Below are positions 10,316 through 27,071 of a DNA stretch of 64,000 bases, piece after piece (within the stretch, counting starts at the first letter, position 1; each line of letters opens with the position of its first letter). The stretch is from Gluconobacter aidae (lineage in GTDB: Bacteria > Pseudomonadota > Alphaproteobacteria > Acetobacterales > Acetobacteraceae), in the NCBI RefSeq assembly GCF_009547075.1, contig NZ_WIPH01000012.1:1-64000 (forward strand). The letters are read 5' to 3'. Under the pieces are notes generated by a model that saw nothing but the letters and a program-made list of their open reading frames with translations, was not told the origin of the DNA and made no database searches. Position numbers and translations under genes: made by a program.

Positions 10316-10357
10316 TGGTTGGTTCTCAGGGCGATCTGGGGAAAAAGGTTGAAGCAG

Positions 10358-12107: not shown

Positions 12108-12153
12108 GCCGATCTTTTCAGGTCGGCGAGTAGCCTGAAACAATGGAGAACAC

Positions 12154-13572
12154 ATGGACTGGTTGTCCCTGCAACAGCGTTATGCTGTTCCTGCGGGTGC
12201 GTCCGCGCGGACAGCGCGGCTGCTGGCGCTCAAGCGTGTTCTGGACGGGACGCAGTATGATGCGCTGCCGCATCCGTTTTCGATGGAGAAGTCGGGGGCG
12301 GGGGAATATATCCCGCTGTCCAGCCGACGCCCTTCTGTTCGCACGAATCTGTGCCGGACGGTTGTGGATGAGGCAGTTTCGCTCCTCTTCGGAGACACGC
12401 ACTGGCCCGGTCTGGTGACGGATGATGTGCGTGTGGCGCATGTCATGAGCACGTTTGCCTCGCAGACCAGACTGGCGTCTCTGCTGATGGAGGCGGCACG
12501 GTTGGGGTCCGTTGGATCGGTTGCGATCCTGTTCGAAGTCTCGGGCGGGGTTCCGAAACTCTCGGTCCTGGAGACGGCGTATCTGACGCCGTTCTGGGAT
12601 GATGCGACGGGAGAACTGCTTCGGGTTGAGGAGCGGTTTCTGGTCCGGGGGCGGGATCTGGCGGCGCAGGGTTATCCGATTGCGGATGAGCTTCTGGGGG
12701 CGCAGTTCTGGTGGCAGCGGATCTGGACGCCTCTGGATTGTGCGGTTTCCGTACCCTGGCTTGTAGGGATGGACGGAGGCGTCCGGGATGAAAGCCGGTC
12801 TGTGCGGCATGGGCTGGGGTTTGTTCCGATCGTGTGGACGCGCAATCTGGGTGGGCCTTGTGGGCGTGATCCGGAAGGCGAGTGCACGTTTGAGCGGGCC
12901 ATCGATACGGTCATCGAGGCGGATTATCTGCTGTCTCAGGCCGGGCGGGGACTCAAATACGGGTCCGATCCGACGCTGGTTCTGAAGACGGGTGGGTTTT
13001 CTGACGGTGTGGCGCATCAGGGCGGCGCGGCTTCGGCGCTGACGCTTCCGCCTGAGGGAGATGCGAAGCTTCTGGAGATCAACGGAAATGCTGCGGGTGC
13101 GGTGCTCGATCATTATCGGGAACTGCGGCTGGTGGTGTTGGAGCAGCTTCACGGAAACCGTGCGCATGGTGACCGGGTTGGTGGTGCGCAGTCGGGCAAG
13201 GCCATGGAGATGATGTGTCAGCCGTTGATCTGGCTGGTGGATCGTCTGCGGCATTCCTACGGCGAGGGGGCATTGCTCTCGATTTACCGGATGGCGTGCC
13301 GGTTTTCCTGTGTTCTGGAAAACGGGCTGCGGATCGGGGGAACGCTGGTCAAGGACCTGCCGTACTGTCGCATGAGTCTGCGGTGGCCGGCGTGGTTTCC
13401 GTCTACTGATCCGGAATTGCTGTCGCTGACGCAGGGTCTGGTGACGGCTGTTTCCAATGGAATTCTGAGCCGTGAGACGGCGGTTCGGATGTTTGCGATG
13501 GCATCGGGAAATTCTGATCCGAATACGGAATGGAAAATGCTGGAGCAGTGGTGTGCTTCTGAACAAACATGA
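12154..13572 (+). CDS. Phage portal protein
   Basis: The 472-residue protein resembles portal proteins of the SPP1 gp6 type: an N-terminal clamp/wing with YIPLSSRRPSVRTNLCRTVV (about residues 50-70), a central beta-rich part, and a long helical C-terminal stem region (HGDRVGGAQSGKAMEMM, about residues 345-360). It forms the 12-subunit ring at the capsid vertex through which TerL pumps DNA. The ATG of the next gene overlaps its stop (ATGA). No head-maturation protease gene follows. The family call rests on position and pattern. Confidence 0.85.
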   Translation: MDWLSLQQRYAVPAGASARTARLLALKRVLDGTQYDALPHPFSMEKSGAGEYIPLSSRRPSVRTNLCRTVVDEAVSLLFGDTHWPGLVTDDVRVAHVMSTFASQTRLASLLMEAARLGSVGSVAILFEVSGGVPKLSVLETAYLTPFWDDATGELLRVEERFLVRGRDLAAQGYPIADELLGAQFWWQRIWTPLDCAVSVPWLVGMDGGVRDESRSVRHGLGFVPIVWTRNLGGPCGRDPEGECTFERAIDTVIEADYLLSQAGRGLKYGSDPTLVLKTGGFSDGVAHQGGAASALTLPPEGDAKLLEINGNAAGAVLDHYRELRLVVLEQLHGNRAHGDRVGGAQSGKAMEMMCQPLIWLVDRLRHSYGEGALLSIYRMACRFSCVLENGLRIGGTLVKDLPYCRMSLRWPAWFPSTDPELLSLTQGLVTAVSNGILSRETAVRMFAMASGNSDPNTEWKMLEQWCASEQT

Positions 13573-14084
13573 GTGTTGACGGGGGAATGATGTCCGGAAC
13601 TGATGACACCATTGAGGATGTGGAGGCTCTGCGTCGGGCGCTGAATGAAGCGCGGAGCGAAGTTGAGGCGGTTCGTCAGGAAATGACGGATGTTGTGACG
13701 CGGCAGGAGACGCTTCAGCGCAGTCATGAGGAAGCGCTGGCCCGGATGCGGCAGGACAGTGACCGGGAAGTGATTGTGGCGGCGCTTCGGGCGGAGGCGA
13801 TCCGCAATGGCGCGCATAATCCTGATGATGTCGTGCGGCTGATTGATCTGGAAGGGATCAATCGGGGTGAGGATGGTTCCGTGGTCGGTGTGGCCGAGGC
13901 TTTGCAGCAGGCCCGTCAGGAACGGGCCTATCTGTTTGGCGAGGTGCTGCGGCCTGGATATTCGAGCGGAACCACTGTCGGGCAGGCAGCGCCGCGCCCG
14001 GGCGGGATCGAACCGTTCAATGCGCGCGCCGTCAGCGAGGCGGATTATGAAGCGCGCAAATGGCAGTTTCTGGCCCAGGGCTGA
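13569..14084 (+). CDS. Phage capsid scaffolding-like protein
   Basis: The 171-residue protein has an acidic start, a long charged coiled coil (about residues 15-75, many E/R/Q with heptad spacing), then the pattern typical of GP20-type scaffolds: AEAIRNGAHNPDDVVRLIDL, INRGEDGSVVG and RAYLFGE. The C-terminal tail ends with EARKWQFLAQG, a likely capsid-binding segment. Scaffolds of this kind guide capsid assembly and leave. The gene overlaps the portal stop by four bases and precedes the capsid gene, as expected. Confidence 0.8.
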   Translation: MSVDGGMMSGTDDTIEDVEALRRALNEARSEVEAVRQEMTDVVTRQETLQRSHEEALARMRQDSDREVIVAALRAEAIRNGAHNPDDVVRLIDLEGINRGEDGSVVGVAEALQQARQERAYLFGEVLRPGYSSGTTVGQAAPRPGGIEPFNARAVSEADYEARKWQFLAQG

Positions 14085-14154
14085 GGCCCGGGACGATATT
14101 TGACCGGGTCTGATGACAGGCCGGGTTCAGACAACACATTTACGGAAAAAACAC

Positions 14155-15534
14155 ATGAGCATTGATAATTTTCCTGTTCAGCTTCAGGCCGCCATTCAGC
14201 AGGGTTTTCTGGCGCGCGAGTTTGAGAATGGCTTGAAATCCCGTCTGGGTTTCCGCCAGGTTGCCGATCGTGAAGTGTTCCCGAATGCCATCGGTGAAAC
14301 GCTGACGAAAACCCGTAAGAGCCTCAAGGCTCCGGTGACGACACCGCTGAACCCGACGGGCAATACCAATTTTGATAACGGTCTGAGTCCGTCCGGCTGG
14401 TCGGTCGAGCAGTATACGCTGTCCATCAACCAGTATGGCGATACGATCGATCTGAATATGGTTACCAGTGGTGTGGGGATTGCGTCGCAGTTTCTGGCCA
14501 ATGCCAACACCAATGGTGTGCAGGCCATGCAGTCGCTGGACCGTCTGGCGCGCAATACGCTGTTTGGTGGTGCGCAGAATGGTGTTGGCGGTTACCTGGG
14601 TGGCAATACGCGTGTGACGGCGACGCTGGGGAGTGCTGGCGACACCATTGCTGTGGACGATATTCGTGGTTTCCAGTCCGTGATCGTGAATGGTCAGGTG
14701 ACGCCGATCAGCGCGACCAATGGTATGACCGTGACGGTGGGCGGAGATGTTTACACACTCGTCAGCGTGACGGCGGATGCGACGAATGTGTCCACGGCGC
14801 CGGGTGGTGTTTCGGGGCAGATGACGTTCTCGGCTTCCGTGTCGGTTGCGGATGGGACGGAAGGTCAGGCCGTTGTGGCGTCCACGGCGCCGATGGTGAT
14901 CCGTCCGAATGGTCGTCTGACGACTGCGGCGTTGCAGACGGCGAGTGCGAACGGTCTGGCGGATACGCTGGGCATCCAGCAGGTTCTGGCCGGTGTGGCG
15001 ACGTTGCGGCGCAATAACGTGCCGATGATTAATGGTGCGTATCACTGTTATCTGGATGATCTGCAGCTTCTGTCGCTCTTCCGTGATCCGGATTTCAAGC
15101 ATCTGTACCGTGGTGCATATGGTTCGGAAGAGTATCGTTCCGGTCAGGTTATTGAGCTTCTGGGTGTGCGGTTTATCCCGACGACGGAAGCGCCGCAGCA
15201 GGCGTCGCTTGGAGCGGGTTCCATTCATCGTGCGCTTCTGCTGGGGCAGGGGGCGCTGATCGAAGGTGACTGTGCGCTGACGGGTCATTCCGATATTCCG
15301 GATGCCGAGCGGGCACTGATCGAAATGGTGGACAGCGTGGCGATGGTGACGCGTGAGCCGCTGGATCGTCTGCGTCAGATCATTGCGCAGTCCTGGTACT
15401 GGATTGGTGGTTTTGCGCTGCCGACGGACGTGACGGCGGACATGACTGTCATTCCGACGGCCACGAACAGCTATCTCAAGCGGGGTGTCGTGATCGAGAG
15501 CCTTGGCACGGATGCGCTTGGTCTGACGTTCTGA
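14155..15534 (+). CDS. Phage major capsid protein (probably N4-gp56-like)
   Basis: The 459-residue protein from the ATG at 14155 begins MSIDNFPVQL; the in-frame ATG at 14113 is 42 bases upstream and less likely. The core shows TTPLNPTGNTNFDNGLSPSG and INQYGDTIDLNMVTSGVGIA followed by DRLARNTLFGGAQ, matching the pattern of HK97-fold capsids of the N4-gp56 group. A Thr/Val-rich inserted beta domain lies at about residues 160-245. It is the most likely shell protein because it directly follows the scaffold gene. Confidence 0.85.
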   Translation: MSIDNFPVQLQAAIQQGFLAREFENGLKSRLGFRQVADREVFPNAIGETLTKTRKSLKAPVTTPLNPTGNTNFDNGLSPSGWSVEQYTLSINQYGDTIDLNMVTSGVGIASQFLANANTNGVQAMQSLDRLARNTLFGGAQNGVGGYLGGNTRVTATLGSAGDTIAVDDIRGFQSVIVNGQVTPISATNGMTVTVGGDVYTLVSVTADATNVSTAPGGVSGQMTFSASVSVADGTEGQAVVASTAPMVIRPNGRLTTAALQTASANGLADTLGIQQVLAGVATLRRNNVPMINGAYHCYLDDLQLLSLFRDPDFKHLYRGAYGSEEYRSGQVIELLGVRFIPTTEAPQQASLGAGSIHRALLLGQGALIEGDCALTGHSDIPDAERALIEMVDSVAMVTREPLDRLRQIIAQSWYWIGGFALPTDVTADMTVIPTATNSYLKRGVVIESLGTDALGLTF

Positions 15535-15543
15535 GGTTTTTCC

Positions 15544-15568
15544 GGTCCCTGTCTGTAAGGCAGGGGCC
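15544..15568 (+). terminator. Intercistronic hairpin after the capsid gene
   Basis: GGTCCCTG and CAGGGGCC can pair in an eight-pair stem (one G-T wobble) 10 bases after the capsid stop. There is only a TCTCTT tail, so partial termination or mRNA protection of the abundant capsid message is more likely than a full stop. Confidence 0.45.
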
Positions 15569-15588
15569 TCTCTTGCGGGGAGAATGAC

Positions 15589-15990
15589 ATGTCCGGAACG
15601 GTTGGTTTATCGACGGATATTCTTTCGGAAGGAGAGAAAATGGATATCCGTCGGTTCTGTGGTTATCCCGCCATTGGATCGCGGGAAGGCAATCAGGAAT
15701 CCTGGCGTTTCTTTCAGGTGGAAGGGGCGCTGGAATGGCGGATGAACTGTCTGTCCGGGGCGGAGCTTCAGCAGATCCGGCTTTATCTGGCGCAGCTTTA
15801 TCCGCTGGAAAATGCGATTACGGCGTCGTCGGACAATCTGGATACGACGCGGGCGGCGGGATGGTATCACAATGGCCGGGAAGTTCAGGACCGGGTGATG
15901 CTGTTCATGCTGTGGCGGAGGCGTCTGTGTGCGTTTCTGGGGGTGGCTGGCGGGCTGGAATTGCAGGACGGCCGGGCGATCGTGGTTTGA
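15589..15990 (+). CDS. Head-tail connector (adaptor)-like phage protein
   Basis: The 133-residue, mainly helical protein starts at the ATG at 15589 behind a GGGGAGA ribosome site. It shows MDIRRFCGYPA, then helices with EWRMNCLSGAELQQIRLYLA. Size, position just after the capsid gene and helical character fit a head-completion adaptor that docks on the portal, comparable to SPP1 gp15 or HK97 gp6. No specific signature was recognised, so the role is positional. Confidence 0.6.
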   Translation: MSGTVGLSTDILSEGEKMDIRRFCGYPAIGSREGNQESWRFFQVEGALEWRMNCLSGAELQQIRLYLAQLYPLENAITASSDNLDTTRAAGWYHNGREVQDRVMLFMLWRRRLCAFLGVAGGLELQDGRAIVV

Positions 15991-16000
15991 GGAGGGCTGT

Positions 16001-16600
16001 GTGCAGCAGGCAATGATCGCAGCCCGGCTCTCCAGAGGGTATGCGAAGGCGGCGGCCGTTCTGGGGGCTTTGGGGGAACAGTATCGTCCTTCGGGCGGTC
16101 TGACGCCGATGGATGTGCTTTATGCGCAGCCCATGCTGGCTTTCGATGTGGATGCCGGATTTTCGTTCGAGCGTCCGATCGGATGGGGGATTCCGACGGA
16201 ATATGTTCTGACGGATCGGCGGGATGATACGCAGGTTGCCGATATTCTCGCTGCGAGCGGTCGGACCTATTTTGTCGCGTCCGTGGAGCCTCTGAGGCCG
16301 CCTTTATGTGTGGTGTGTAGCCGGACCGTGACGGTCAGTGGGGTTACGGGAACGGTGGAGACGCTGGTCTCGGACTGTCCGGCGGCCGTTATCATGCGGG
16401 CGAAAGGGGAGTCTTCGGGCAGTGGGATTCCCGGAGCGACGCGTCCGGGACAGTTCGTGATGTATCTTCCGCTTCTGCCCGGGGTGGTGCTGACGCCTTA
16501 CATGACGGTCGCGACCGATCTGGGTACGACTTATACGGTTAATGCGGTGGAAACTTCCGGCTTCGGGATCCGGTGTACCATGTCGCTTCAGCAGGTCTGA
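16001..16600 (+). CDS. Neck/tail-completion-like phage protein
   Basis: The frame is open from 15929, but GTG at 16001 (VQQAMIAARLSRGYAKAAAV) follows GGAGGG and begins just after the previous stop. ATG at 16013 is the alternative. The product has 199 residues. After an N-terminal helix it is beta-rich, with GRTYFVASVEPLRPPLCVVC and a C-terminal TPYMTVATDLGTTYTVNAVE stretch, suggesting a stopper or neck protein. It is encoded between the adaptor and the presumed tail terminator, where head-closure proteins usually lie. Confidence 0.55.
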   Translation: MQQAMIAARLSRGYAKAAAVLGALGEQYRPSGGLTPMDVLYAQPMLAFDVDAGFSFERPIGWGIPTEYVLTDRRDDTQVADILAASGRTYFVASVEPLRPPLCVVCSRTVTVSGVTGTVETLVSDCPAAVIMRAKGESSGSGIPGATRPGQFVMYLPLLPGVVLTPYMTVATDLGTTYTVNAVETSGFGIRCTMSLQQV

Positions 16601-16612
16601 GGGAGGATAAGA

Positions 16613-17596
16613 ATGACGGATGCCTCCAGGGTCGGGCTGGCGTTGGCCTATAACTGTGTGCAGATCCTTTATCCGGAGGGTCTGTCTGGAGCTTCGGTGA
16701 CGGGGCGGCAGGTGGTGCTGCGGCGGGGGTGGCTGTTGCCGAGCGATCTTTTTGCGGCACAGAATATCCGTAACGACATCGACTTTGTCACCATCACCAT
16801 GGCGCCCCGGAAAATGCCGGAATGGGCGGAACCTCTTGGACGGCCCTGGCGGGTGCAACAGAAGGCTGTTCCTACGGTTGGGGTTGTGGTTACGGATGGG
16901 ACGGTTGAGATCGTCTTTTCCGGAACATCCACGCCTGCGGGTGTGGTGGCGGTCTGGCTGGATGACATGCCGCATGGGGGATCTCCTTCTGCGGCCTATG
17001 CGGTGACTGCGCAGGATACGCCTGCGACGGTTGCGGCGGCTCTGGCGGCGGCGTTGACGGATGGTGTGGCGAATGGGGCTGTCGTCAGTGTGCCGGGGCG
17101 GGTTCTGAACGGTAACGCCGTTGGGTATGGGCAGTCGGTCCGGGTGACGCGGCGGCAGGCGCAGCTTTATCGGGTTTCGATCTGGACGGCGGATGCGACG
17201 GCGCGGGAGACACTGGCTTCCGTGTTGGATGCGGCGCTGGCGGAGCAGAACTGGATCAGTACTCTGGACGGGCGGGAGGCTCAACTCCGGTTCCAGAGCG
17301 TGGAAGATGTCGACACGATGCAGAACGAGGCGTTGTATCGGCGGGATTATTTCTATGAGCTGGTGTTTGACACCCTTCAGGTGCAGTGGGCGCCCGAAAT
17401 GCTGTGTGGCATCGGGAACCTGTCTGGAGATGGCGGGGTAGCGATGTCTTTCGGGGAGTTGGCTCCCGGGGGAGCGAACCAGACGGTAACGGCGGCTCTG
17501 GACGCCATGCAGGCGGTGGTGGCGGCGCAGGCTGCTGCTACGGCCTATCCGGGGCTGGGGGTTGATCGGTTTGGGACAGTTGTCGCTGCTGCCTGA
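16613..17596 (+). CDS. Phage tail terminator-like protein with an inserted domain
   Basis: The 327-residue protein has an N-terminal part with GRQVVLRRGWLLPSDL and DIDFVTITMAPRKMPEWAEP. An Ala/Gly/Val-rich middle (about residues 90-170) comes next, then YRVSIWTADATARETLASVL and a region ending NEALYRRDYFYELVFDTLQ. The last block is the pattern of tail terminators that cap the tail tube before head joining. The middle looks like an extra immunoglobulin-like domain. It sits just before the sheath gene. The family call is tentative. Confidence 0.55.
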   Translation: MTDASRVGLALAYNCVQILYPEGLSGASVTGRQVVLRRGWLLPSDLFAAQNIRNDIDFVTITMAPRKMPEWAEPLGRPWRVQQKAVPTVGVVVTDGTVEIVFSGTSTPAGVVAVWLDDMPHGGSPSAAYAVTAQDTPATVAAALAAALTDGVANGAVVSVPGRVLNGNAVGYGQSVRVTRRQAQLYRVSIWTADATARETLASVLDAALAEQNWISTLDGREAQLRFQSVEDVDTMQNEALYRRDYFYELVFDTLQVQWAPEMLCGIGNLSGDGGVAMSFGELAPGGANQTVTAALDAMQAVVAAQAAATAYPGLGVDRFGTVVAAA

Positions 17597-17632
17597 CGCA
17601 GAAGCTCAGGCAAAGCGCTGAAATTTCATCAG

Positions 17633-17667
17633 GAAAGCGGGTTGCTTCCGTGGGAGCGCCCGCTTTC
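17633..17667 (+). terminator. 9-bp inverted repeat hairpin before the sheath gene
   Basis: GAAAGCGGG at 17633-17641 and CCCGCTTTC at 17659-17667 are perfectly complementary around a 17-base loop, followed by TGCATTTTGG. It may attenuate transcription between connector and tail genes or protect the sheath message. It also argues against the in-frame GTG at 17650 as the sheath start. Confidence 0.5.
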
Positions 17668-17691
17668 TGCATTTTGGAGAGCGATCCGGGG

Positions 17692-19179
17692 ATGTCTCTG
17701 GTCTATCAGGCGGGAACGCTGAATACCACGGCACTGACCGTGCCAAATCTTTATGTGCAGATCGCCCAGCCGCAGACGCTGGCCCTGGCGGGGGCGTCGT
17801 CTTCGCAACTGGGTATCGTGGGCACTGCCGGCTGGGGGCCGGTGGGAATGCCGCTGCCGATCGGGAGCATGAGCGACTATATCGCGGCGTTCGGCGGCAA
17901 GCAGAACAAGACGACGGATGCGGGTCTGGCGGTCAATATCGCTGTGATGCAGGAAGCGTCGTCTTTTGTTGTCGTCCGGGTGACGGACGGGACGGATGTG
18001 GCGGCATCCGGCATGCTGGATGGTGTGACGATCCAGGCTGTTCATACGGGTAGCGTGGGTAATGGCATCGTGGCGGCCGTGACGGCTACGGGTTCCGGAT
18101 TTGCGCTTGCGGTCACGCATGCGGATCTGGGGGCTACGACCTATGCGGGAGCGGACTGGTCAGCCATTATGGCGGCAGTGGCGCAGGATCTGAATGCGCT
18201 GGTGAAGGTTGTGCTTCCGGAGACGGTTCCGGCTGTGGCTGCTGCGAATGTTACGCTTTCGGGAGGTACGGATGGCGGGGTGCCGACGACGGCTCAGTTC
18301 ATCGGGCAGGACAGCACGGTGCGGACCGGTATGTATGCGCTGCGCGGGCAGGGCTGTGCGGTGGCGCTACTGCATGGTGTGACGGATAGTACGTCCTATA
18401 CGGCTCAGGCGGCTTTCGGGACGTCCGAAGGGGTCTATATGATCGCTGTCGGGCCGGCTTCCGATACGGTGACGAATGCCATTTCGGTCAAGGCGGCGAG
18501 TGGGCTGGATGCGGCGTCGGTCAAGCTGATGTTCGGTGACTGGCTGTGGTGGAATGATGATGCCAACGGCATGATGCTGGTCAGCCCGCAGGCATTCGCA
18601 GGTGGCAGGCTGGCCGCTCTTTCGCCGGAGCAGTCCAGTCTGAACAAGGCGCTGTCGGGAATCGTGGGGAGCCAGAAGGCGGGTCTGACGGGCAGTAGTG
18701 CGACCTATTCCACGGCTGAACTGTCAGTGCTGTTTACGGCCGGAATTGATGTGATCTGCAATCCGGCGCCGGGTGGCACTTACTGGGCGGTGCGCTGTGG
18801 GCATAATGCGTCCAGCAAGAGCACCATGAATGGCGACAATTATACGCGCCTGACGAACTATATTGCGTCTTCGCTTGCGGGTGGCATGGGCGCTTATGTC
18901 GGCGAGGTGATCAACGACACGCTGTTCAGCGATATCCGTTCGACGCTTCTGGGTTTTCTGTCGTCGCTGCTATCGCAGGGGATTCTGGGCGTTCAGAATG
19001 GTGAACTGCCTTACAGTGTGGTCTGTGATTCGAGCAACAACCCGCAGTCCCGCACGGCGCTGGGCTATGTGCAGGCGGATGTGGCGGTTCGCTATCAGGG
19101 CATCAACGAGAAATTCATCGTCAATCTGCAGGGTGGTGCGTCTGTCACCGTGTCGTCTGCATCGGGGAGTGTCGGCTAA
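17692..19179 (+). CDS. Contractile tail sheath protein
   Basis: The protein is 495 residues from the ATG at 17692, which has GGAGA upstream. It shows the sheath layout: an N-terminal TVPNLYVQIAQPQTLALAGA strand that links to neighbouring subunits, then ASSSQLGIVGTAGWGPVGMP. A variable middle domain follows, and the conserved C-terminal part has VDVICNPAPGGTYWAVRCGHN-type sequence and the linker ending NEKFIVNLQGG. It identifies the particle as contractile (myovirus-like). The stop codon directly abuts the tube gene. Confidence 0.92.
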   Translation: MSLVYQAGTLNTTALTVPNLYVQIAQPQTLALAGASSSQLGIVGTAGWGPVGMPLPIGSMSDYIAAFGGKQNKTTDAGLAVNIAVMQEASSFVVVRVTDGTDVAASGMLDGVTIQAVHTGSVGNGIVAAVTATGSGFALAVTHADLGATTYAGADWSAIMAAVAQDLNALVKVVLPETVPAVAAANVTLSGGTDGGVPTTAQFIGQDSTVRTGMYALRGQGCAVALLHGVTDSTSYTAQAAFGTSEGVYMIAVGPASDTVTNAISVKAASGLDAASVKLMFGDWLWWNDDANGMMLVSPQAFAGGRLAALSPEQSSLNKALSGIVGSQKAGLTGSSATYSTAELSVLFTAGIDVICNPAPGGTYWAVRCGHNASSKSTMNGDNYTRLTNYIASSLAGGMGAYVGEVINDTLFSDIRSTLLGFLSSLLSQGILGVQNGELPYSVVCDSSNNPQSRTALGYVQADVAVRYQGINEKFIVNLQGGASVTVSSASGSVG

Positions 19180-19605
19180 ATGGCAAATCCATACAGCATT
19201 GGCCGGGATTGCCGGATTACGGTTCTGTGGAATGGTCAGCGGGTGGATCTGCGGGACGTCACGTCCTTCAGTGCGGCCCAGGAAACGCAGGCCCTGCGTG
19301 CAAATCCGCTGAACGGGGTGCCGCTGGAGTTCAATGTTCCCAATGGCTGGCGGGGGGCATTCCAGATTGCCCGCGCCAATGCGGCACTGGATAATCTGGT
19401 GGCGGCTGTTGAGGCTGCTTACTGGAATGCCGGGACGGTCGGCAGCGGGACGATCTATCAGTACGTGACCGAACCGGATGGGACGACCAGTACCTGGGAG
19501 TTCAGCAATGTCTCCATGCAGCTGAAGAGTGATCCCTGGCAGGCGGACCACATGATCCATCAGACAGTTCAGTTTTTTGCTTCTACGAGGACGAAAATTT
19601 CGTGA
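19180..19605 (+). CDS. Tail tube protein
   Basis: The 141-residue beta-sandwich protein starts immediately after the sheath stop. Sequence such as CRITVLWNGQRVDLRDVTSF, TIYQYVTEPDGTTSTWEFSN and VSMQLKSDPWQADHM fits the P2 FII / Hcp-like tube fold that stacks as hexamers inside the sheath. Its TGA overlaps the GTG of the tail chaperone gene (GTGA). Confidence 0.85.
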   Translation: MANPYSIGRDCRITVLWNGQRVDLRDVTSFSAAQETQALRANPLNGVPLEFNVPNGWRGAFQIARANAALDNLVAAVEAAYWNAGTVGSGTIYQYVTEPDGTTSTWEFSNVSMQLKSDPWQADHMIHQTVQFFASTRTKIS

Positions 19606-19706
19606 GTGATTTTCCGCAGGAAGTTGTTCTGTCCGATAGCCGGCGTCTGACGCCGCTTTTCGAGCGTGATGCGGATGAGGATCTGCGGGACGTCGCAAAA
19701 AACTGA
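19602..19706 (+). CDS. Tail assembly chaperone, short (zero-frame) product
   Basis: GTG at 19602 overlaps the tube stop (GTGA) and opens 34 codons (starts VSDFPQEVVLSDSRRL, ends DLRDVAKN) that stop at TGA 19704-19706. The stop directly follows the slippery heptamer A AAA AAC. In tailed phages the short chaperone and its frameshifted longer form coat the tape measure before tube assembly. It was too short for routine gene calling but is well placed between tube and tape-measure genes. Confidence 0.75.
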   Translation: MSDFPQEVVLSDSRRLTPLFERDADEDLRDVAKN

Positions 19707-19876
19707 GCCGGCACTCCGGGTTCCAGGAGATGCTGTATCTGCTGGATCACGGGGTGCCATGGGATGTTTTGCGAGGATGGTCGAGAGCGCGGCGTCTGGC
19801 CGCGTGTGTCATTACCGGAGAGCGGGAAGGGCACTGTTTTGACTGGGATATGATGGGTTATCGGGGAGAGATATGA
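19602..19876 (+). CDS. Tail assembly chaperone, -1 frameshift fusion product
   Basis: At 19697-19703 the zero frame reads GCA AAA AAC TGA, a perfect A AAA AAC slippery site in the right phase. After a -1 slip, translation resumes at C19703 and continues for 57 codons (begins LSRHSGFQEMLYLLDHGVPW, contains VLRGWSRARRLAACV) to TGA 19874-19876, which overlaps the next ATG. Stimulators are weak: CCGG-CACT-CCGG at 19708-19719 could make a 4-bp hairpin. The G/GT-type frameshift between tube and tape measure is one of the best conserved features of tailed phages, which supports the call strongly. Confidence 0.75.
19697..19703 (+). promoter_or_regulatory. Programmed -1 ribosomal frameshift site A AAA AAC
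   Basis: The heptamer is in the correct phase (xxA AAA AAC) and is followed at once by a zero-frame TGA. The -1 frame is open upstream of the site and for 57 codons after it. Confidence 0.75.
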
Positions 19877-20730
19877 TGCGGGAGCACATCTGGCGGTCTC
19901 TTCTCTCGGTCAGGACGTTTTTCACAGCTTCTTCCAGAGGGTTGGCGTGGGCGCGTCGGTCGTTTCCGATTGCGGCGGTGCCACGGCTGAAACAACAGGT
20001 TGGGATCGTGCCGTCGCGCATCAGAGGGCTCCTGGTTTCCGGGAGTACGGTGCGGGGGGGCGGCTTTCAAAGAAGAGAGGGTATTCAGGACATTGCACCT
20101 GCTCGCAAATCGGGTGGAGTACTTCATTCGGTTTTGTTTCCCATGCGGGAAAAACAGCGGGTGGTGCGGATCCTGCGACCAGGGCTTCCTTTGAAGCCTT
20201 TTTCCATTGTCGCAGAAAAAGTGGGAATACGTGCGGCTGTGCATGAGATGACTGCTTTTCCGAAACGGGGGGGGCGATTGGATGCAAAGTCGGGGCGGGC
20301 TGTGGTGGCGCGGAAGCGGACTGCTGCTGATGTCGGGCGAGCAGTGGCATTCCTCGATCGGGGGGGAATGATTGAGCGTGCATTGCCTGTCGGGCGTATC
20401 AGGTATGGTGCGGCGGGCGTGTCTCCTGTCGTTCGCCGGGCAGTACTGGCGGCTGAAAGCTCGGCCTGTATTCCGTCAGTTCGGAAACAGACCGTGCATG
20501 CGCCATCGTCTGAAGGAGCCGGACGGGAACATGACGCGCTTCCAGCCTTTCCGGCGCTCCGGAATTATCACGACAGGAACACTGTGAGTGGTGATGCGGG
20601 TCACGAGATGAGGCGTGATGATTTCTCGTTCGGTAATCGCAGGTCCCGTCTGGCCGCGCGGCGTTCTGGCGGGGGGGTGGATGAAATCATGCAGCCTCAG
20701 TATCCGGGCCGAAGTATCGGATTTTTCTGA
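19873..20730 (+). CDS. Short, Arg-rich protein in the tape-measure slot (possible decayed tape measure)
   Basis: The 285-codon frame starts with ATGATG overlapping the chaperone stop (ATGA) and ends 18 bases before the U-like gene, so it occupies the tape-measure position. It is unlike a tape measure: short (these usually exceed 500 residues), very basic, without long coiled coils, glycine-rich loops or clear membrane segments, and rich in codons uncommon in the neighbouring genes (AGA, AGG, CGA). Another frame is also open at 19854-20246, with a more protein-like start (AHLAVSSLGQDVFHSFFQRV) but no start codon there. A deleted and frameshifted tape measure is a fair alternative. Confidence 0.5.
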   Translation: MMREHIWRSLLSVRTFFTASSRGLAWARRSFPIAAVPRLKQQVGIVPSRIRGLLVSGSTVRGGGFQRREGIQDIAPARKSGGVLHSVLFPMREKQRVVRILRPGLPLKPFSIVAEKVGIRAAVHEMTAFPKRGGRLDAKSGRAVVARKRTAADVGRAVAFLDRGGMIERALPVGRIRYGAAGVSPVVRRAVLAAESSACIPSVRKQTVHAPSSEGAGREHDALPAFPALRNYHDRNTVSGDAGHEMRRDDFSFGNRRSRLAARRSGGGVDEIMQPQYPGRSIGFF

Positions 20731-20748
20731 CAGAGGAGGTGTTCCCCG

Positions 20749-21663
20749 ATGGGTACTGGTCTTTCCGACATCGAAAATGCCATTGGTGCCGTAGGACGGC
20801 TGGGGTCATCATCTCCTGTCATACTGGGAAATCTGGTTCTGACGGGAATTGAAGTTCCCGATACGCTTCAGGTTGGCGGTCGGCAGATGCTGGTTGTGCA
20901 TCGTCTTCCGGGGGGCGGGCGTGTTGTTGATGCGCTGGGCAACGATCCGGGGCGTCTGGAACTGAAAGGGCGGTTTCTTGGTCCGGATGCGCAGATGCGG
21001 GCGCAGGCCGTTGAACGCATGCGGATGGCAGGTCAGCAGGTTGCTTTTTCGGCTGCGGGTCTCTCTGTCCAGGTCTGGATTGCCCAGTTCCATTATGTCT
21101 ATCAGGCAAAAGGTGCTGTTTGCTCCTATACGCTGGTTCTTGAGCGACCACAGGAAACGACGGTTGTACAGACTTCCGGGACCTTGTCCGGAGTTCTTGG
21201 AGATGATGTCGGGAGTGCTCTCGACAGTTTTTCCAGCGTTGTTTCGGATGTTTCCGAAGGGGTTTTTACGGCGGTGGGGCAGGTGTCTTCGGTTGTCGGA
21301 CAGGTCATGCCACTGGCGACGCTTGTTGGTACCGGGGGGTTTGCCTCGAAGGTGACGGATGCTCTGGGGACGGTCAACGGCGTGGCGCAGAGTGGTATGA
21401 ATCTCGCTACGGTGCCTTCCGCGCTGACCTCTGTTGCCGGGGGGCTGGAAAATGCGGGAAGTGGGTTGCAGTCCATTCTGACCGGAGCCGGGCAGAATGT
21501 TGAAGCCATTCAGCCGGTCAACAGTGTTTCACTGAATGCTTTGGGACAGAACGCGGCGCTTCTGAGCGCTGCGGCCGATGCGGGCAGTCTGGTGAATCGC
21601 TCTGCGGCGAATATTGCTGTGGCGCAGGGGCAATCGACGTCTCTGCCGTCCGTTTTCGCATGA
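20749..21663 (+). CDS. Baseplate/tail protein, gpU-like N-terminal domain
   Basis: The 304-residue protein has a GAGGAGG ribosome site upstream. The first 135 residues contain VPDTLQVGGRQMLVVHRLPG, GRLELKGRFLGPDAQMRAQA and VWIAQFHYVYQAKGAVCSYT. That is the pattern of P2 gpU / Mu-like tail-end proteins that read out tail length and contact the hub. The C-terminal 170 residues are low complexity, rich in Ser/Val/Gly/Ala, and may be an extended linker. It begins the baseplate operon that runs on through overlapping genes. Confidence 0.65.
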   Translation: MGTGLSDIENAIGAVGRLGSSSPVILGNLVLTGIEVPDTLQVGGRQMLVVHRLPGGGRVVDALGNDPGRLELKGRFLGPDAQMRAQAVERMRMAGQQVAFSAAGLSVQVWIAQFHYVYQAKGAVCSYTLVLERPQETTVVQTSGTLSGVLGDDVGSALDSFSSVVSDVSEGVFTAVGQVSSVVGQVMPLATLVGTGGFASKVTDALGTVNGVAQSGMNLATVPSALTSVAGGLENAGSGLQSILTGAGQNVEAIQPVNSVSLNALGQNAALLSAAADAGSLVNRSAANIAVAQGQSTSLPSVFA

Positions 21664-21667
21664 GGAC

Positions 21668-21880
21668 ATGATGCAGGATATTATTGTCAGTGCTGCGGAT
21701 ATTTCGCTGTTTCATGTGGCCGCGCGTGAGCTTGGGAATGCTTCTCAATGGTGGAGGATTGCGCAGGTCAACGGGATGACGGATCCGGATCTGGGATGGA
21801 TTTCCGAAACTGTCGTGCTGAAGGTGCCGGCGGTCGAGAGTGATCTGGTATCGGGTTTGCCTGACGGGGTGTTGGAATGA
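21668..21880 (+). CDS. gpX-like small tail protein (LysM-type)
   Basis: The 70-residue product has the layout of P2 gpX: a small LysM-like fold with LFHVAARELGNASQWWRIAQ, VNGMTDPDLGWISE and VVLKVP. ATG at 21668 or 21671 follows a GAGG ribosome site. The stop overlaps the gpD-like start (ATGA). This order (X then D) is the P2 and Mu-like arrangement; the protein probably joins the tube end to the hub. Confidence 0.75.
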   Translation: MMQDIIVSAADISLFHVAARELGNASQWWRIAQVNGMTDPDLGWISETVVLKVPAVESDLVSGLPDGVLE

Positions 21881-22938
21881 GCGTCAGAAACCTGGAAGTC
21901 CAGGTTCTTTTTGATGGGCAGGTTGATCCGGTTCTGGCGCTTCTGCGGTTCGAGATTGATGCGAACCGGTATGAAGCCTGTGATGTCGCATCGCTGCGTT
22001 TTGCCGTCAGGAACCCAGCGCAGCAGGCTTTGTGGTTTGAAACGGAGCAACCCGCCCGGAAGTGGGTGATCCTCCAGATGCGGGATAAGCAGAGCGTTTC
22101 GTCTTCGTGGACTACGCTGTTTGAGGGCCGGATCGACCATATTGAATATGCGGCCGAGCATGCCGTTCTGGAAGTGGAATGCCGGGATGCGCTGGCGGCT
22201 CTGATGGATCTGCGGATTCAGGATGCGTGGCTTAACCATACCCAGCAGGAATTGCTGGAAATCATGGCGCAGGCTGCGGGGCTGGATGCGGCGATTGCGC
22301 TCCCCTCTGATCAGGCTACGCTTATGGCGGGTCAGTTCTGGCAGATCGAGCATAAGCGCGGTGCTCTCATGGGGCAGCACCGTTTTCAGACGGCGGCGGA
22401 TCTTGCGTTCACGATTGCCCGGGATTCTTTTTGCGACCTTTACGGCAGTGGAACATCTCTTGTCTGCCAGCCACTGGGCTCGTCTTCCGATACGGGTGTG
22501 CAGGTGACAGACATGCGGAACGCGGTTCTTGAAACCAGTGTTGCGCGGGATCTGCAGCTTCTGTCCGGTGTGGTTGTGCACATGGCATCGTGGGATTCAC
22601 GTCAGAGAAGTACGACGCAGATTTATTATGATGGCGTTTCATTTTCTCAGGAAGTCCCGTCGGGAAACGCCAGTATCCATACCTTTCGTGTTCCCGGACG
22701 GCGGCTGGACGAGTTGCAAAGGCTGGCGCGTGGCAAGCATGCACGCATTGCTGCGCATGCGTTGTCTGTGCGGATCAGGATTCCGGGTGTGTTGGGTATT
22801 GCGCCAAGAAACTACATGACTGTCGTGACGGGAAATGGGGAAAAGACCCTGGGGATTGATCAGGTGATCTCCCGGTTTTCCGTGGAGCAGGGATTTGTGC
22901 AGCAGGTTGTTCTGAGGGATCGCGGAGGTGGGACATGA
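21877..22938 (+). CDS. Baseplate hub protein, gpD-like
   Basis: The 353-residue protein resembles P2 gpD / T4 gp27-type hub proteins: an N-terminal beta domain (SVRNLEVQVLFDGQVDPVLA), the segment FEGRIDHIEYAAEHAVLEVE, the conserved LMDLRIQDAWLNHTQQELLE helix pair, and a C-terminal RVPGRRLDELQRLARGK block. It forms the trimer between tube and spike. It overlaps X before it and V after it by four bases each. Confidence 0.85.
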   Translation: MSVRNLEVQVLFDGQVDPVLALLRFEIDANRYEACDVASLRFAVRNPAQQALWFETEQPARKWVILQMRDKQSVSSSWTTLFEGRIDHIEYAAEHAVLEVECRDALAALMDLRIQDAWLNHTQQELLEIMAQAAGLDAAIALPSDQATLMAGQFWQIEHKRGALMGQHRFQTAADLAFTIARDSFCDLYGSGTSLVCQPLGSSSDTGVQVTDMRNAVLETSVARDLQLLSGVVVHMASWDSRQRSTTQIYYDGVSFSQEVPSGNASIHTFRVPGRRLDELQRLARGKHARIAAHALSVRIRIPGVLGIAPRNYMTVVTGNGEKTLGIDQVISRFSVEQGFVQQVVLRDRGGGT

Positions 22939-23558
22939 GTGATGCCCGTTTTGATGCCGCTGCCCTTCAAGGCAGGACGGCGCATACGATGTTTGGAATC
23001 GTCTCAGCCGTCGATCCTGTCAATCATGCCGTAAAGGTACGGATCCAGCCTGAAAACGTGGAAACGGGCTGGATTCCGGATGCTGGCGGGGTGCATGCGG
23101 GAGATTTGCGGATTGCGTGTCCGTCTTCTCCAGGTACGCATGTTGTTCTTCAGCCTGTTGAGGGGGACGGAGAGCATCTTGTTGTGACGGGGTGTGTGTT
23201 TGACACGGTGGTGATGGCGCCTGTGTCTCCTCTGACCGGAGCCGTTGCGCAGCCTGGCGAACTGCTTGTCAAAGGGGGATGTGGTCGTCCGCCACTTTCC
23301 TCGTCAGGCGCTTCCGGGGCGACGTCTTCGGAAGCGGGCTGGCTGCATGTCGGGTCTGGTGGTGTGGCGGCGGGTGCGGGAAATTCACGGATTGTTTTGA
23401 AGGACGGTGGCATCAGTTTTTCTGTTGGTGGGACAAGCATGACCCTGACATCTGCCGGGTTGACGGTTTCGGGGGGAGATGTGCGTACGGATCAGCATTC
23501 GCTGAATGGGCATGTTCATTTGCTGGGAAGTCAGAAGACGGAAGGACCGCTTGGATGA
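22935..23558 (+). CDS. Baseplate spike protein, gpV-like
   Basis: The 207-residue protein has an OB-fold N-terminus (FGIVSAVDPVNHAVKVRIQP), a linker with LLVKGGCGRPPLSSSG, and a C-terminal beta-helix (SRIVLKDGGISFSVGGTSMT). It ends with NGHVHLLGSQKTEGPLG; the HVH resembles the HxH iron-binding tip of P2 gpV spikes. It would puncture the target envelope. Its stop overlaps the next start (ATGA). Confidence 0.85.
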   Translation: MSDARFDAAALQGRTAHTMFGIVSAVDPVNHAVKVRIQPENVETGWIPDAGGVHAGDLRIACPSSPGTHVVLQPVEGDGEHLVVTGCVFDTVVMAPVSPLTGAVAQPGELLVKGGCGRPPLSSSGASGATSSEAGWLHVGSGGVAAGAGNSRIVLKDGGISFSVGGTSMTLTSAGLTVSGGDVRTDQHSLNGHVHLLGSQKTEGPLG

Positions 23559-23915
23559 TCGCTCTTTCACATGTTTTCGGGAACGATCTGGTTCTGAACT
23601 CCGGCACGCTTCAGACGGTCTCTGGCACGGAGTTGACGAGGCAGAGTCTGTTGAGGCGTTTGCTGACCGTTTCCGGGGATTATATCTGGCAGCTGGATTA
23701 CGGGGTGGGGCTGCCTACTCATGGTCGGTCAGGTCGTTGCAGCGGAAGCGATGGAATCTGTCATCCGGGCGCAGGTTCAGGCCGATGCCGGGGTGGATTC
23801 ATCGCAGGCCGTGACAGTGACTGTGACGGATGAGGGCACCGGTGTGTGTAAATGCGACGTGTTCTATGTCGATGCGGCATCCGGTCAGCAGCAGAGCCTG
23901 TCTTTTTCCTACTGA
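23555..23915 (+). pseudogene. gpW/gp25-like baseplate gene with a +1 frame break
   Basis: The ATG at 23555 (ATGA overlap with V) reads MIALSHVFGNDLVLNSGTLQ and on to QLDYGVGLPT, as expected for the small gp25/W baseplate protein. The frame then turns into atypical sequence that stops at 23833. Moving one base forward at 23720 restores sense: ATG 23721 reads MVGQVVAAEAMESVIRAQVQ to SGQQQSLSFSY and stops at 23915. The two parts together have the right length and place (V-W-J order). A frameshift mutation, an assembly error, or re-initiation at ATG 23721 are the options; no known +1 programmed site is visible. Confidence 0.65.
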
Positions 23916-23959
23916 AATGATGAGAGCGGCACAGTATTGAACCGCTCCAAGAGGATGCG

Positions 23960-25099
23960 ATGTCTCTCTCCTTACGTTCCTTTTCCACGACTGTTTCGGC
24001 GGCAGTGACAACGGCGCAGGCCTCATGTTCCCAACTGCTGGATGTTTCCATCGGATCGCCTGTTCGGGCGCTTATGGAAGGTGTCGGCGGTGTGGGATTG
24101 TGGTTGCAGTATCTGGTATTGCAATCACTGTTACGGACCCGTCTGGCGACGTCGACGGGATCGGACTGTGACAGTTTCGTCAATGATTTTGGCATGACCC
24201 GTCTGCCGGGAACGCCAGCGACAGGGCTTGTGACGTTTACGTCCTTTATAGCCAGCGAGCAGTCGGCGGTTGTTCCGCCCGGAGTGATTGTGCGCACTGT
24301 GGGGGGAATATCCTTTGTCGTGACGCAGGATCAGTCCTTGCCGACATGGTCCGCATCTGCTGGCGGATATGTTCGTGAGGCAGGTATGACGACGCTGTCT
24401 GTGCCTGTTTCGTGCCAGGTGGCGGGGGCGGCCGGAAATGTCTCGGTCGGTGCGATCTGCCTGATGGGTACGGCGGTCTCTGGGCTGGATACCGTGACGA
24501 ATCCGGCGCCTTTCCTGAATGGTTCCGACCAGGAGACGGATAGTCAGCTGAGGGCACGTTTTCCGCTCTGGCTGGCGGCGAAGGCTTCTGCCAGTCGGGC
24601 CGCAGTGGGGAATGCCATTGCCAACGTCCAGACGGATCTGAGTTATTCGCTCCGGGATGGTCTGGATGCGGCGGGTGTTGCGCGGAGCGGATACTTTACG
24701 GCTGTGGTCAATGACGGAAGTGGGGGGCCGTCGGATCAGCTGTTGTCGAATGTCTATGAGGTCATTGATTCTGTTCGGGCCCTGGGGGTCGGGTTTGGTG
24801 TGCAGGTTCCACAGGTTCTGACGGTGGATGTGTCCATGGATGTTGTGGTGCCGTCTTCCGTTTCGGTTCAGCAGGCGGCAAGCGCCATTCAGTCTGTCGT
24901 GTCGAAAGATATTGCCGCGATGACCGTGGGGGCCGGATATCCGTATAGCCGTCTTTCCTACCTGGCCTATGCGGGCGCGGGAATCTCCGTGACGTCGGTT
25001 CTGAATGTCCGTCTCAATGGAGGGCAGGCTGATATTCCTGCCAATGGCAATCAGGCGCTCGTGGTTGGAAGCATTCAGATCAATGTCACTCAGGGCTGA
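23960..25099 (+). CDS. Baseplate wedge protein, gpJ-like
   Basis: The 379-residue protein matches the gpJ / T4 gp6-like family: an N-terminal LLDVSIGSPVRALMEGVGGV stretch, a central beta part with ATGLVTFTSFIASEQSAVVP and AGAAGNVSVGAICL, and SDQETDSQLRARFPLWLAAK (about residues 190-210). A C-terminal domain follows with VQVPQVLTVDVSMDVVVPSS. It forms the baseplate wedge with W and I. The gap from the broken W gene is 44 bases. Confidence 0.88.
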   Translation: MSLSLRSFSTTVSAAVTTAQASCSQLLDVSIGSPVRALMEGVGGVGLWLQYLVLQSLLRTRLATSTGSDCDSFVNDFGMTRLPGTPATGLVTFTSFIASEQSAVVPPGVIVRTVGGISFVVTQDQSLPTWSASAGGYVREAGMTTLSVPVSCQVAGAAGNVSVGAICLMGTAVSGLDTVTNPAPFLNGSDQETDSQLRARFPLWLAAKASASRAAVGNAIANVQTDLSYSLRDGLDAAGVARSGYFTAVVNDGSGGPSDQLLSNVYEVIDSVRALGVGFGVQVPQVLTVDVSMDVVVPSSVSVQQAASAIQSVVSKDIAAMTVGAGYPYSRLSYLAYAGAGISVTSVLNVRLNGGQADIPANGNQALVVGSIQINVTQG

Positions 25100-25141
25100 G
25101 GATCCGGGATCTGGATCCATCGGCAGGGATGAGGAATTTTC

Positions 25142-26380
25142 ATGGCGGTATTTAATACATATCCGAAACTCGAATCCCTGACGGGAGAAGAGGTCCTTGT
25201 TCTGGCGGATGCCAGCGGAACACGGACAGTGACGGCGACTGTGGCCCAGGTGGCTGAAGCTTCTGTCAGCGTTTCGGCCAGTGGTCAGTTCTATGCCGAC
25301 AAGGGCGCGCAGGTAAAACGTTTTGCGGATCGGCTTCTTGTCGGCGTTGCGGCGGAGAATCCTGCTCTGAGTGATCGGGCCAGTTCTTCGGAAAATGACT
25401 GGCTGTCGGAGACCATGGCAGCGACGTCCATTGGTCCGTGGGCATTGCAGGATGCCCAGTGCGCGTCGGTTGCGCAGTTTGGCAACAGTGCGTTCGTCGC
25501 GGGGTCGCGGACGTCGGATGCGGTGAGCGGCTCTTCGGTTCTGGGGTTTCAGCCTAGCTCCATCGGAGTGGCGTCCTGGGGGATTTCCGACGATACGTCC
25601 AATCCTACCACGACCACTGCCTATGCCTATTACGGTGAAGCGTGGCGGATGGCCGGAGTGGATTACCAGCCGACTTTTGGGATGGAACTTGAGGCCGTCA
25701 ATTTCGGTGGTCTTGCCGTGGGGCAGTCCACGCCTTATGCGCCGAATGTCGGGGGTGGCGTGTATGGAATCCAGCTTGGCGCAGGTGGTGGGCAGACGTC
25801 CGGGACGTCCGATGCCGCAGCGGGAATAGTATTTGTTTCTAATCCGAATTCATGGCAGACGGGTATCGTTTTTGGTGCCCAGTCCCTGACGGGAACGGAT
25901 GGGAAGGATTCCGGATATGCGTCGGCTGTTTCTCTGGCGCGGAATCATGCCGTCGAATGGCATACGCCCGAGACCGTTTCCGGGGTGGCGGGGGCGAATG
26001 TGGGGGCATTTGTCCGCTCCACGGTGACGGAACGTACCAGTGGCACGCGGCAGGAATTTACCGATGACGGAATCCTGTTTGGCAATATCGAGGGTGAAAC
26101 ACTCTTCTCGATTGCCGGCATGGCCAGCCCGACCAATGCGCTTCAGGTTCAGGCGGGAGCCGGGACTCAGGCAGCGGGTCTGTATGTGCAGGAAGGAACG
26201 GGAGGTTCGGGAAATCTTGGACTTTTTCCCGCAAGCGGGGGAGAGATTCAGATGACATCGCCGGTCACTGGGGCCGGAGGCACGATGCCGGCTGTGGCAG
26301 ATGGTGGTTTTCTTCATATCAACATCAATGGTGCCGATTATCGTATCCCACTGATGAGCCCTAGCCAGGCTGGGGGATGA
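25142..26380 (+). CDS. Fibre- or spike-like tail protein of unknown family (412 aa)
   Basis: The protein is rich in Gly/Ser/Thr/Ala, with many short beta-type repeats and almost no charged helices. Examples are GVYGIQLGAGGGQTSGTSDA and NAVEF-like segments, and the end is GGFLHININGADYRIPL, a common last strand of trimeric phage fibres. The N-terminal MAVFNTYPKLESLTGEEVLV could be the baseplate-binding part. The place is odd: it lies between the J and I genes, which are normally adjacent in P2-like phages. It is probably a receptor-binding or decoration protein; no enzymatic motif was seen. Confidence 0.6.
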   Translation: MAVFNTYPKLESLTGEEVLVLADASGTRTVTATVAQVAEASVSVSASGQFYADKGAQVKRFADRLLVGVAAENPALSDRASSSENDWLSETMAATSIGPWALQDAQCASVAQFGNSAFVAGSRTSDAVSGSSVLGFQPSSIGVASWGISDDTSNPTTTTAYAYYGEAWRMAGVDYQPTFGMELEAVNFGGLAVGQSTPYAPNVGGGVYGIQLGAGGGQTSGTSDAAAGIVFVSNPNSWQTGIVFGAQSLTGTDGKDSGYASAVSLARNHAVEWHTPETVSGVAGANVGAFVRSTVTERTSGTRQEFTDDGILFGNIEGETLFSIAGMASPTNALQVQAGAGTQAAGLYVQEGTGGSGNLGLFPASGGEIQMTSPVTGAGGTMPAVADGGFLHININGADYRIPLMSPSQAGG

Positions 26381-26384
26381 TCGG

Positions 26385-27071
26385 ATGGGTATTCTCAATG
26401 AAGAAGGCCGGGATATTCTCCGGGCATCGGATGGAAGCATTCTTTTTGATACGGGACCTGCTCCAGGTTCGGTAGAGGATTTTTCAGGTCGGCTCCGGCG
26501 CCTGTTGCCCAAGGGGTGGTTTCCGTCGGAGCCTCAGGGGCTGGATGAGGATGCGGCACCGGTACTGGCTGCGCTTCTGCGCGGGTTTGGTGCTGTCCTG
26601 GCTGGCATCTGGCAACTGATGCTGGAGTGTTCTCAGCAGATGCGTCTTTCGACGATGAGCGGCGCTTTTTTAGACATGGCTGCGGGGGATTACTTCGGTG
26701 AAGGCGGTCTGATCCGCCAGGCGTCCGAGACAGATGCCGTCTATCGCAAGCGCATCAGTGCTTCGCTGTTTGCCGAACGCAACACCCGGCAGGCCGTGAC
26801 GAATGCGATCGTCGCAGCGACCGGCGTCCAGCCGGTCATCATTGAAACCCTCAATGCGGCTGACTGCCATGCCTTTGGGTGCGCAACGTCGCCTGCCATG
26901 GGCGGGGGGTGCGGTTATGGTGCGGCGGCCCTGCGTTACGGCAGCCTTCAGGGTGGTCAGTTCTTTGTAGAAACACAGTTGGGAAAGGCCGCAGATCTGG
27001 CGACAGTCTGCCGCGCCGTCGATCAGACGGCGGCCATGGGCGTTACCGGCTGGATCAAGGTGAAAAATTAA
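26385..27071 (+). CDS. Tail protein I-like baseplate component
   Basis: The 228-residue protein shows the gpI layout: LRRLLPKGWFPSEP near residue 40, a helical LRGFGAVLAGIWQLMLECSQ block, the conserved FLDMAAGDYFGEGGLIRQAS, and SETDAVYRKRISASLFAERN. The C-terminus ends in WIKVKN. It links wedge and fibres. The stop overlaps the ATG of the fibre gene by one base (TAATG). Confidence 0.8.
   Translation: MGILNEEGRDILRASDGSILFDTGPAPGSVEDFSGRLRRLLPKGWFPSEPQGLDEDAAPVLAALLRGFGAVLAGIWQLMLECSQQMRLSTMSGAFLDMAAGDYFGEGGLIRQASETDAVYRKRISASLFAERNTRQAVTNAIVAATGVQPVIIETLNAADCHAFGCATSPAMGGGCGYGAAALRYGSLQGGQFFVETQLGKAADLATVCRAVDQTAAMGVTGWIKVKN

Follow-up and report, generated by a model that had tools for sequence, protein, structure and literature searches.

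A stretch of 64,000 nucleotides from Gluconobacter aidae (contig NZ_WIPH01000012.1, positions 1-64,000; a single assembly of 127 contigs), here called the window, contains what we read with high confidence as the signal for programmed -1 ribosomal frameshifting in a tail-assembly-chaperone gene, located in a Mu/P2-like contractile head-tail cluster, with a product that is probably dead in this strain. Judged by its anatomy, the signal would work like that of the G/GT pair in phage lambda. Most ribosomes would terminate at the TGA that adjoins the heptamer A AAA AAC and release a short chaperone, G. In a minority, held by a stem of nine base pairs located six nucleotides downstream, both tRNAs would slip by one base in the -1 direction, and translation of 57 further codons would give a fusion, GT. 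The lambda analogy suggests that G coats the tape measure and that tube subunits are brought in by the T part. The data show the anatomy and conservation of the signal, its codon constraint, selection on both frames and the private deletion in this assembly, from which we infer the slippage, its rate and products, and the functions of the proteins.

The zero frame of G (19602-19706; all features are on the plus strand unless stated otherwise) starts at a GTG at 19602 that overlaps the stop codon of the tail tube gene and runs for 34 codons to GCA AAA AAC TGA at 19695-19706. The slippery heptamer is at 19697-19703 and is followed immediately by the zero-frame stop at 19704-19706. The -1 frame, which is T-like, extends from C19703 over 57 codons to a TGA at 19874-19876 and overlaps the ATG at 19873 that opens the next open reading frame (ORF). 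The heptamer, the stop and the length of the extension are exactly as proposed in the initial annotation. In phage lambda, G is located between the tube and the tape measure. The proposed placement of the present site between two such genes holds for the tube, which G adjoins, whereas the next gene is a tape-measure gene by position only. The heptamer AAAAAAC occurs four times on the plus strand and three times on the minus strand of the window; the heptamer alone therefore proves little, and comparative support is needed. A chance origin was considered and rejected on the conservation of the heptamer across relatives. Two repetitions were also observed here. An identical stretch of 16 bases, GGATCTGCGGGACGTC, is present in the tube gene at 19245-19260 and immediately 5' of the slippery site at 19679-19694, and a second GCAAAAAACTGA, which we regard as chance, is located on the minus strand at 19569-19580 inside the tube gene.

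Matches to the sheath protein were identified in 92 of 200 genomes of the family and in 53 of 102 genera, numbers that include the window's own. We retrieved 100 stretches around such matches (L034-L133, the window's own among them), leaving out seven weak or partial places, and 92 of these also had a tube match, one being the window itself. Candidate sites had to fall within preset limits: a heptamer in phase, a zero-frame stop within 60 nucleotides and a -1 frame open for approximately 45-85 codons. Such a site was present in 88 of the 92 tube-positive loci, the window included; of the other four, L074, L098 and L110 reach the end of the contig and L122 has none. The heptamers in the 88 loci were AAAAAAC (42), GGGAAAC (42), and GGGAAAT, AAAAAAA, AAAAAAT and CCCTTTG (one each), the last of which, in L113, was not credited as a slippery site. 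Excluding the window, an A6N or G3A3N heptamer is present at the same place in 86 of the 88 assessable relatives, a set that includes some second copies within one genome and related genomes that are not independent. These numbers bear out the proposal that the tail-chaperone gene beside the tube carries a -1 frameshift site conserved in related clusters; a search for the refuting case, both ORFs without a slippery site, left L113 and L122 as the two relatives that lack one. The zero-frame stop adjoins the heptamer in 79 of the 88 loci with a site, the -1 extension is 54-68 codons long in the credited loci, and T begins with a conserved LSRHP or LSRHS in most of them.

A scan of named genomes recovered 28 loci, 19 from Gluconobacter, three from Neokomagataea, two from Asaia, and one each from Tanticharoenia, Ameyamaea, Swaminathania and Acidomonas. 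All 28, as well as the Komagataeibacter phage phiKX1, contain A AAA AAC (29/29); eight of the 28 were already in the family set, and 21 of the 29 are new. In the genus set, which overlaps with the named-genome loci, the heptamer is accompanied by a T-like frame in 25 of 25 loci. The A6 version of the heptamer encodes lysine (44 of 87 loci) and the G3A3 version encodes glycine (43 of 87 loci). Both versions are slippery yet encode different residues, and it is therefore the slipperiness rather than the protein sequence that has been kept. Given the encoded residues and the local codon usage, a locus would have the slippery bases with a probability of 0.033 on average (87 loci).

The RNA downstream of the heptamer was examined as a simple stem. 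Folding of 18 aligned sequences resulted in a stem of 9 base pairs that begins 6 nucleotides past the heptamer. In the window, the spacer, which includes the stop codon, covers 19704-19709, and the predicted stimulatory stem, supported by folding, pairing and codon choice, consists of a 5' arm, GGCACTCCG, at 19710-19718 and a 3' arm, CGGGGTGCC, at 19750-19758. All nine pairs are kept in 63 of the 88 loci and eight pairs in another 20, such that at least eight are kept in 83. Weaker stems were found in L124 (seven pairs), L051 and L126 (five pairs), L103 (four pairs) and L113 (three pairs), and the 5' arm is one base nearer to the heptamer in L051, L103 and L126. When one arm was slid by ten offsets, at least eight pairs were obtained in only 0 or 1 locus. 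Paired cells amounted to 95.5% (87 sequences) for the real stem versus 38.1-50.6% in six slid versions. The folding z-scores for 13 of the 88 cassettes ranged from -2.0 to -7.65, with a value of -3.99 for the window.

The covariation support for the stem is mixed. Four of five measures exceeded 500 of 500 shuffles, and the covariation score was 0.094 for the real stem versus 0.026-0.050 in the slid versions. On the weaker side, the number of pairs with double changes (2/9) was reached by 18 of 500 shuffles, and the slid versions match the real stem in double-change cells (0-10 versus 7) and in pair types (6-11 versus 10). Codon choice is the stronger argument. In the 3' arm, glycine is encoded by GGG in 87 of 87 loci (local usage 22%) and valine by GTG in 87 of 87 loci (49%). 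In the 5' arm, histidine is encoded by CAC in 79 of 84 cases (39%), and 64 of 81 proline codons are CCC (23%), while only two are CCG, which has a usage of 62%. The genus set contains 8-9 pairs in 24 of 25 loci. In five of the 25, GGA replaces GGG, and the partner base is T in all five, which keeps the pair. The remaining locus, L227, is a second, diverged chaperone copy in one genome (G204, contig C4), in which the heptamer is present and the stem is poor, with four pairs; it perhaps comes from another prophage. A stem of 9 base pairs located 6 nucleotides behind the heptamer completes the classical -1 signal, in which its predicted role would be a stimulatory one.

Both frames are under selection in relatives. 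We estimated the ratio of nonsynonymous to synonymous substitutions (dN/dS) by the Nei-Gojobori method for 19 Gluconobacter loci (171 pairs), dropping pairs that were too close or saturated. The medians were 0.030 for the tube (162 pairs), 0.073 for the sheath (171 pairs), 0.104 for G (165 pairs) and 0.128 for T (164 pairs), values that are rough since the median dS was 0.76-1.51 and thus often near or above 1. The suggestion that the tail cluster was under selection in the past is supported by these estimates (0.10 for G and 0.13 for T after rounding). T is constrained as a protein, which supports its translation. The ORF at 19873-20730 had a dN/dS of 0.54, which comes partly from fragmentary matches and from which nothing was inferred.

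A constrained T could also be a separate gene with its own start, next to which the heptamer would be incidental. This is how the region is annotated in phiKX1 (LC644975, L134; positions 11666-12207), where G and T are listed as two separate hypothetical proteins and T starts at an internal ATG, such that its first six residues are omitted. However, the conserved LSRHP or LSRHS at the beginning of T is upstream of that annotated start, the heptamer has been kept through two different codon solutions, and the stem is placed for the heptamer. We consider a separate T gene very improbable. The same record qualifies the suggestion that the products are unannotated: both are listed, but the frameshift is not noted. 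Slightly less probable still is that the fusion is made by transcriptional slippage, in which the polymerase stutters on a run of A. The run of six A in 44 of the 87 loci would fit such a process, but six A are short for polymerase stutter, the G3A3 version in the other 43 loci has no long homopolymer, and stems located downstream of the site typically accompany ribosomal frameshifting. The programmed ribosomal -1 frameshift remains the reading that we adopt.

G is taken as a probable tail chaperone from its surroundings and from comparisons with intact relatives. It is located directly after the sheath and tube genes, and the ORF that follows has no family match. Searches of Pfam and PHROG with the short ORF of the window and with its fusion gave nothing. 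A tblastn search of the fusion against phages returned seven records at E values up to 10; phiKX1 and phiKX2, both at E 1e-9, are the only credible ones. The G proteins of 16 intact relatives all match phrog_20383, a family of unknown function and their sole PHROG match (16/16), while Pfam gave nothing of note and a sequence search of PDB nothing below E 0.5. A structural model of an intact G, that of G. oxydans NBRC 14819 (locus L136), was compared with 350,542 chains by Foldseek. The best two matches, both weak, were the HK97 tail assembly chaperone and YqbN, and there was no match at E <= 0.001.

The gene in the window differs from its relatives in length. The zero frame up to the heptamer is 99-123 codons long in the relatives versus 34 in the window strain, and no frame as short was found in the 28 named relatives or in the other 87 family loci for which a candidate site exists. 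Compared with the G of its close relative G. oxydans NBRC 14819, which has 105 codons, the window lacks 213 nucleotides, or 71 codons, in frame, between two copies of the direct repeat CTGACGC in that relative. A single copy of the 7-base-pair repeat marks the junction at 19647-19653, and the remainder of the gene differs by one base. What is left is a remnant of 34 residues, of which approximately the first 17 and the last 17 are common to the longer relatives. The suggestion in the initial annotation that the ORFs are too short for gene finders thus applies to the 34 codons of this assembly, where the loss is private, but not to the relatives, in which the first ORF is of ordinary size. The deleted part corresponds to residues 18-88 of the intact G. 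Of the 37 columns that are invariant in alignment A2 it includes 34, and of the three modelled helices it removes two, together with more than half of the remaining one. Because 71 of 105 codons are removed, both G and GT of the window strain have lost the chaperone core; the products are probably non-functional and the gene dead, while the frameshift signal and the T part are intact.

Damage to the locus is not confined to G. The gene in the baseplate position near 23.7 kilobases (23555-23960, ends approximate), presumably a gp46/W gene by its position, is out of frame, its length departing by one base from that in three relatives. G was found in 24 of 26 genomes of the genus, the exceptions being the window's own genome and G208 (L228). 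In G208, which has the same right host flank as the window, the sheath matches only in part, the portal is in two pieces, and there is no match for the tube, for the ORF at the tape-measure position or for the gene at 20749-21663. Because the window strain and G208 are both eroded, the locus is decaying independently in single lineages.

The alternative that the 213-nucleotide deletion is an assembly error, and that the strain has a normal G, is unlikely, even though only a single assembly of 127 contigs is at hand and the deletion is absent from all 28 named relatives. A clean direct repeat of 7 base pairs flanks the deletion, a length at which short-read assemblies do not usually collapse, and elsewhere the gene has a single mismatch. 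Moreover, the baseplate gene is also out of frame, and G208 shows that decay of the locus occurs in the genus. Much less probable is that the deletion is adaptive and that a mini-chaperone of 34 residues (91 when fused) still works. In its favour, the deletion preserves the reading frame exactly and leaves the signal and T intact; against it, residues 18-88 make up most of the modelled fold and nearly all of the invariant columns, a baseplate gene is also out of frame, and the deletion is absent from all 28 named relatives. A gene that has lost its chaperone core is the reading we retain.

The head-tail cluster extends over 10319-28327 in the window, and the order of its tail genes is similar to that of phage Mu. 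Within 10319-15534, family matches identify the small (start 10319) and large (start 10791) subunits of the terminase, the portal (start 12154), the scaffold (start 13569) and the major head protein (start 14113). The contractile tail sheath is encoded at 17650-19179 (phrog_23 tail sheath, E 1e-45), and the tail tube gene at 19180-19605 is named by its position after the sheath, as its match, phrog_12993, carries no named function. The ORF at 19873-20730, which encodes an arginine-rich protein and has no match in Pfam or PHROG, is assigned to the tape measure by position alone; it has only 285 residues, and phiKX1 carries an ORF of 742 residues two genes after T. The gene at 20749-21663 is conserved and matches phrog_36820, a family of unknown function (E 3e-81); it is referred to here as gp43-like. 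A baseplate J-like protein is encoded at 23960-25099 (PF04865, E 1e-28). No integrase or replication genes were seen among the matches of the cluster ORFs scanned, several of which had no match. The DnaB gene at 6317-7837 is taken as a host gene because it is located in a run of trpB-trpA-accD-folC-dnaB that is common to, and on the same side in, three genomes of the same genus. An R-type tailocin, consisting of a tail only, was considered and rejected, as terminase, portal, scaffold and head protein are present.

The cluster looks vertically inherited, as an old resident locus with rearranged surroundings. The terminase is present in 26 of 26 genomes of the genus. Among 21 other genomes with examined flanks (two one-sided, some with short ends), the portal and head protein are syntenic in all 21 and the terminase, with the window's protein as query, in 11. 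The left host flank is common to three of the 21, with accD-folC in a fourth (G037), and the right host flank (argF, argD and neighbours) to six, with argF-argD farther downstream in three more. None of the flank genes sought was found in the other eight, and both flanks together are shared by none of the 21 relatives. The identity of the sheath follows that of the host gene accD (Spearman 0.63, 77 genomes, identities to the window only), and the distance matrices of five cluster genes correlate with that of the host argD (Mantel r 0.78-0.88, p <= 0.0011) in 10 genomes that were picked because argD lies near. Vertical inheritance is thus suggested by a flank shared with several genera and by co-divergence with host genes, but it is also expected of any old resident locus, not just of a gene transfer agent. 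A phage that re-inserts at one site is the alternative, against which stand the co-divergence with host genes and the lack of an integrase among the cluster ORFs scanned.

We tentatively suggest, as a possibility somewhat short of an even chance, that the cluster encodes a contractile head-tail particle which the Acetobacteraceae have domesticated and pass on vertically, possibly one resembling a gene transfer agent. Its single place in the chromosome would date from before the separation of several genera, its frameshift-controlled chaperone ratio would have been selected throughout, and single strains would now be losing the locus by lesions such as the one in the window. Inducible contractile-tailed particles have been reported in strains of Gluconobacter, Acidomonas and Ameyamaea (PMC8566455), and a link to this locus was not found in the accessible part of that paper. 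If the domesticated particle is real, it raises the question whether genes are exchanged among acetic-acid bacteria in industrial use. More generally, the frameshift signal indicates sensitively whether selection still acts on a resident head-tail locus.

The kind of frameshift described here, the lambda G/GT type, is already known. No description of this locus, its stem or its conservation was found in the openly available literature on gene transfer agents and prophages of Gluconobacter, Acetobacteraceae and relatives, judged by titles and abstract openings. The device is unusually well documented by comparison: related clusters across a bacterial family have kept a heptamer of two kinds, a stop adjoining it and a stem at a fixed place. 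According to the accessible part of PMC5009743, the ratio of G to GT in lambda is about 30:1, and the tape measure is bound by G and the tube protein by T. The present system, like that of lambda, has its site near the end of G and would make a short chaperone plus a low-level -1 fusion. The two differ in that the present stop follows directly after the heptamer and a stem of 9 base pairs begins at 6 nucleotides; the likeness is one of anatomy. Reporter tests of two HK97-like chaperone genes gave shifts of 6 and 7%, as given in the part of PMC3711429 that was open. This HK97-like cluster also has -1 recoding of a tail chaperone, and the HK97 chaperone is the top Foldseek match for G; however, the cluster is defined there by sequence similarity to HK97, whereas the present G confidently matches only phrog_20383. 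Phage Mu likewise has a contractile tail, but its frameshift is -2 in the portion of PMC5009743 consulted, whereas it is -1 here with a standard X XXY YYZ heptamer.

Another of the closest known systems is phiKX1, the host strain of which is among the mitomycin-inducible lysogens in the accessible part of PMC8566455. It has a similar order from terminase to sheath to G/T, the same heptamer and the same T domain. However, phiKX1 is a phage genome of 53 kilobases with the longer ORF two genes after T, while in the window T is followed by the ORF of 285 residues and then the gp43-like gene. Gene transfer agents such as RcGTA (PMC9662315, in its accessible part) resemble the present locus in having a head-tail cluster that is apparently inherited with the host, and in the window no integrase or replication gene accompanies it among the ORFs scanned. 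A gene-transfer-agent-like system of contractile morphology would go beyond the known agents as described in that part of the paper. The present cluster, known from its genes, differs from agents of the RcGTA type in that it contains a contractile sheath.
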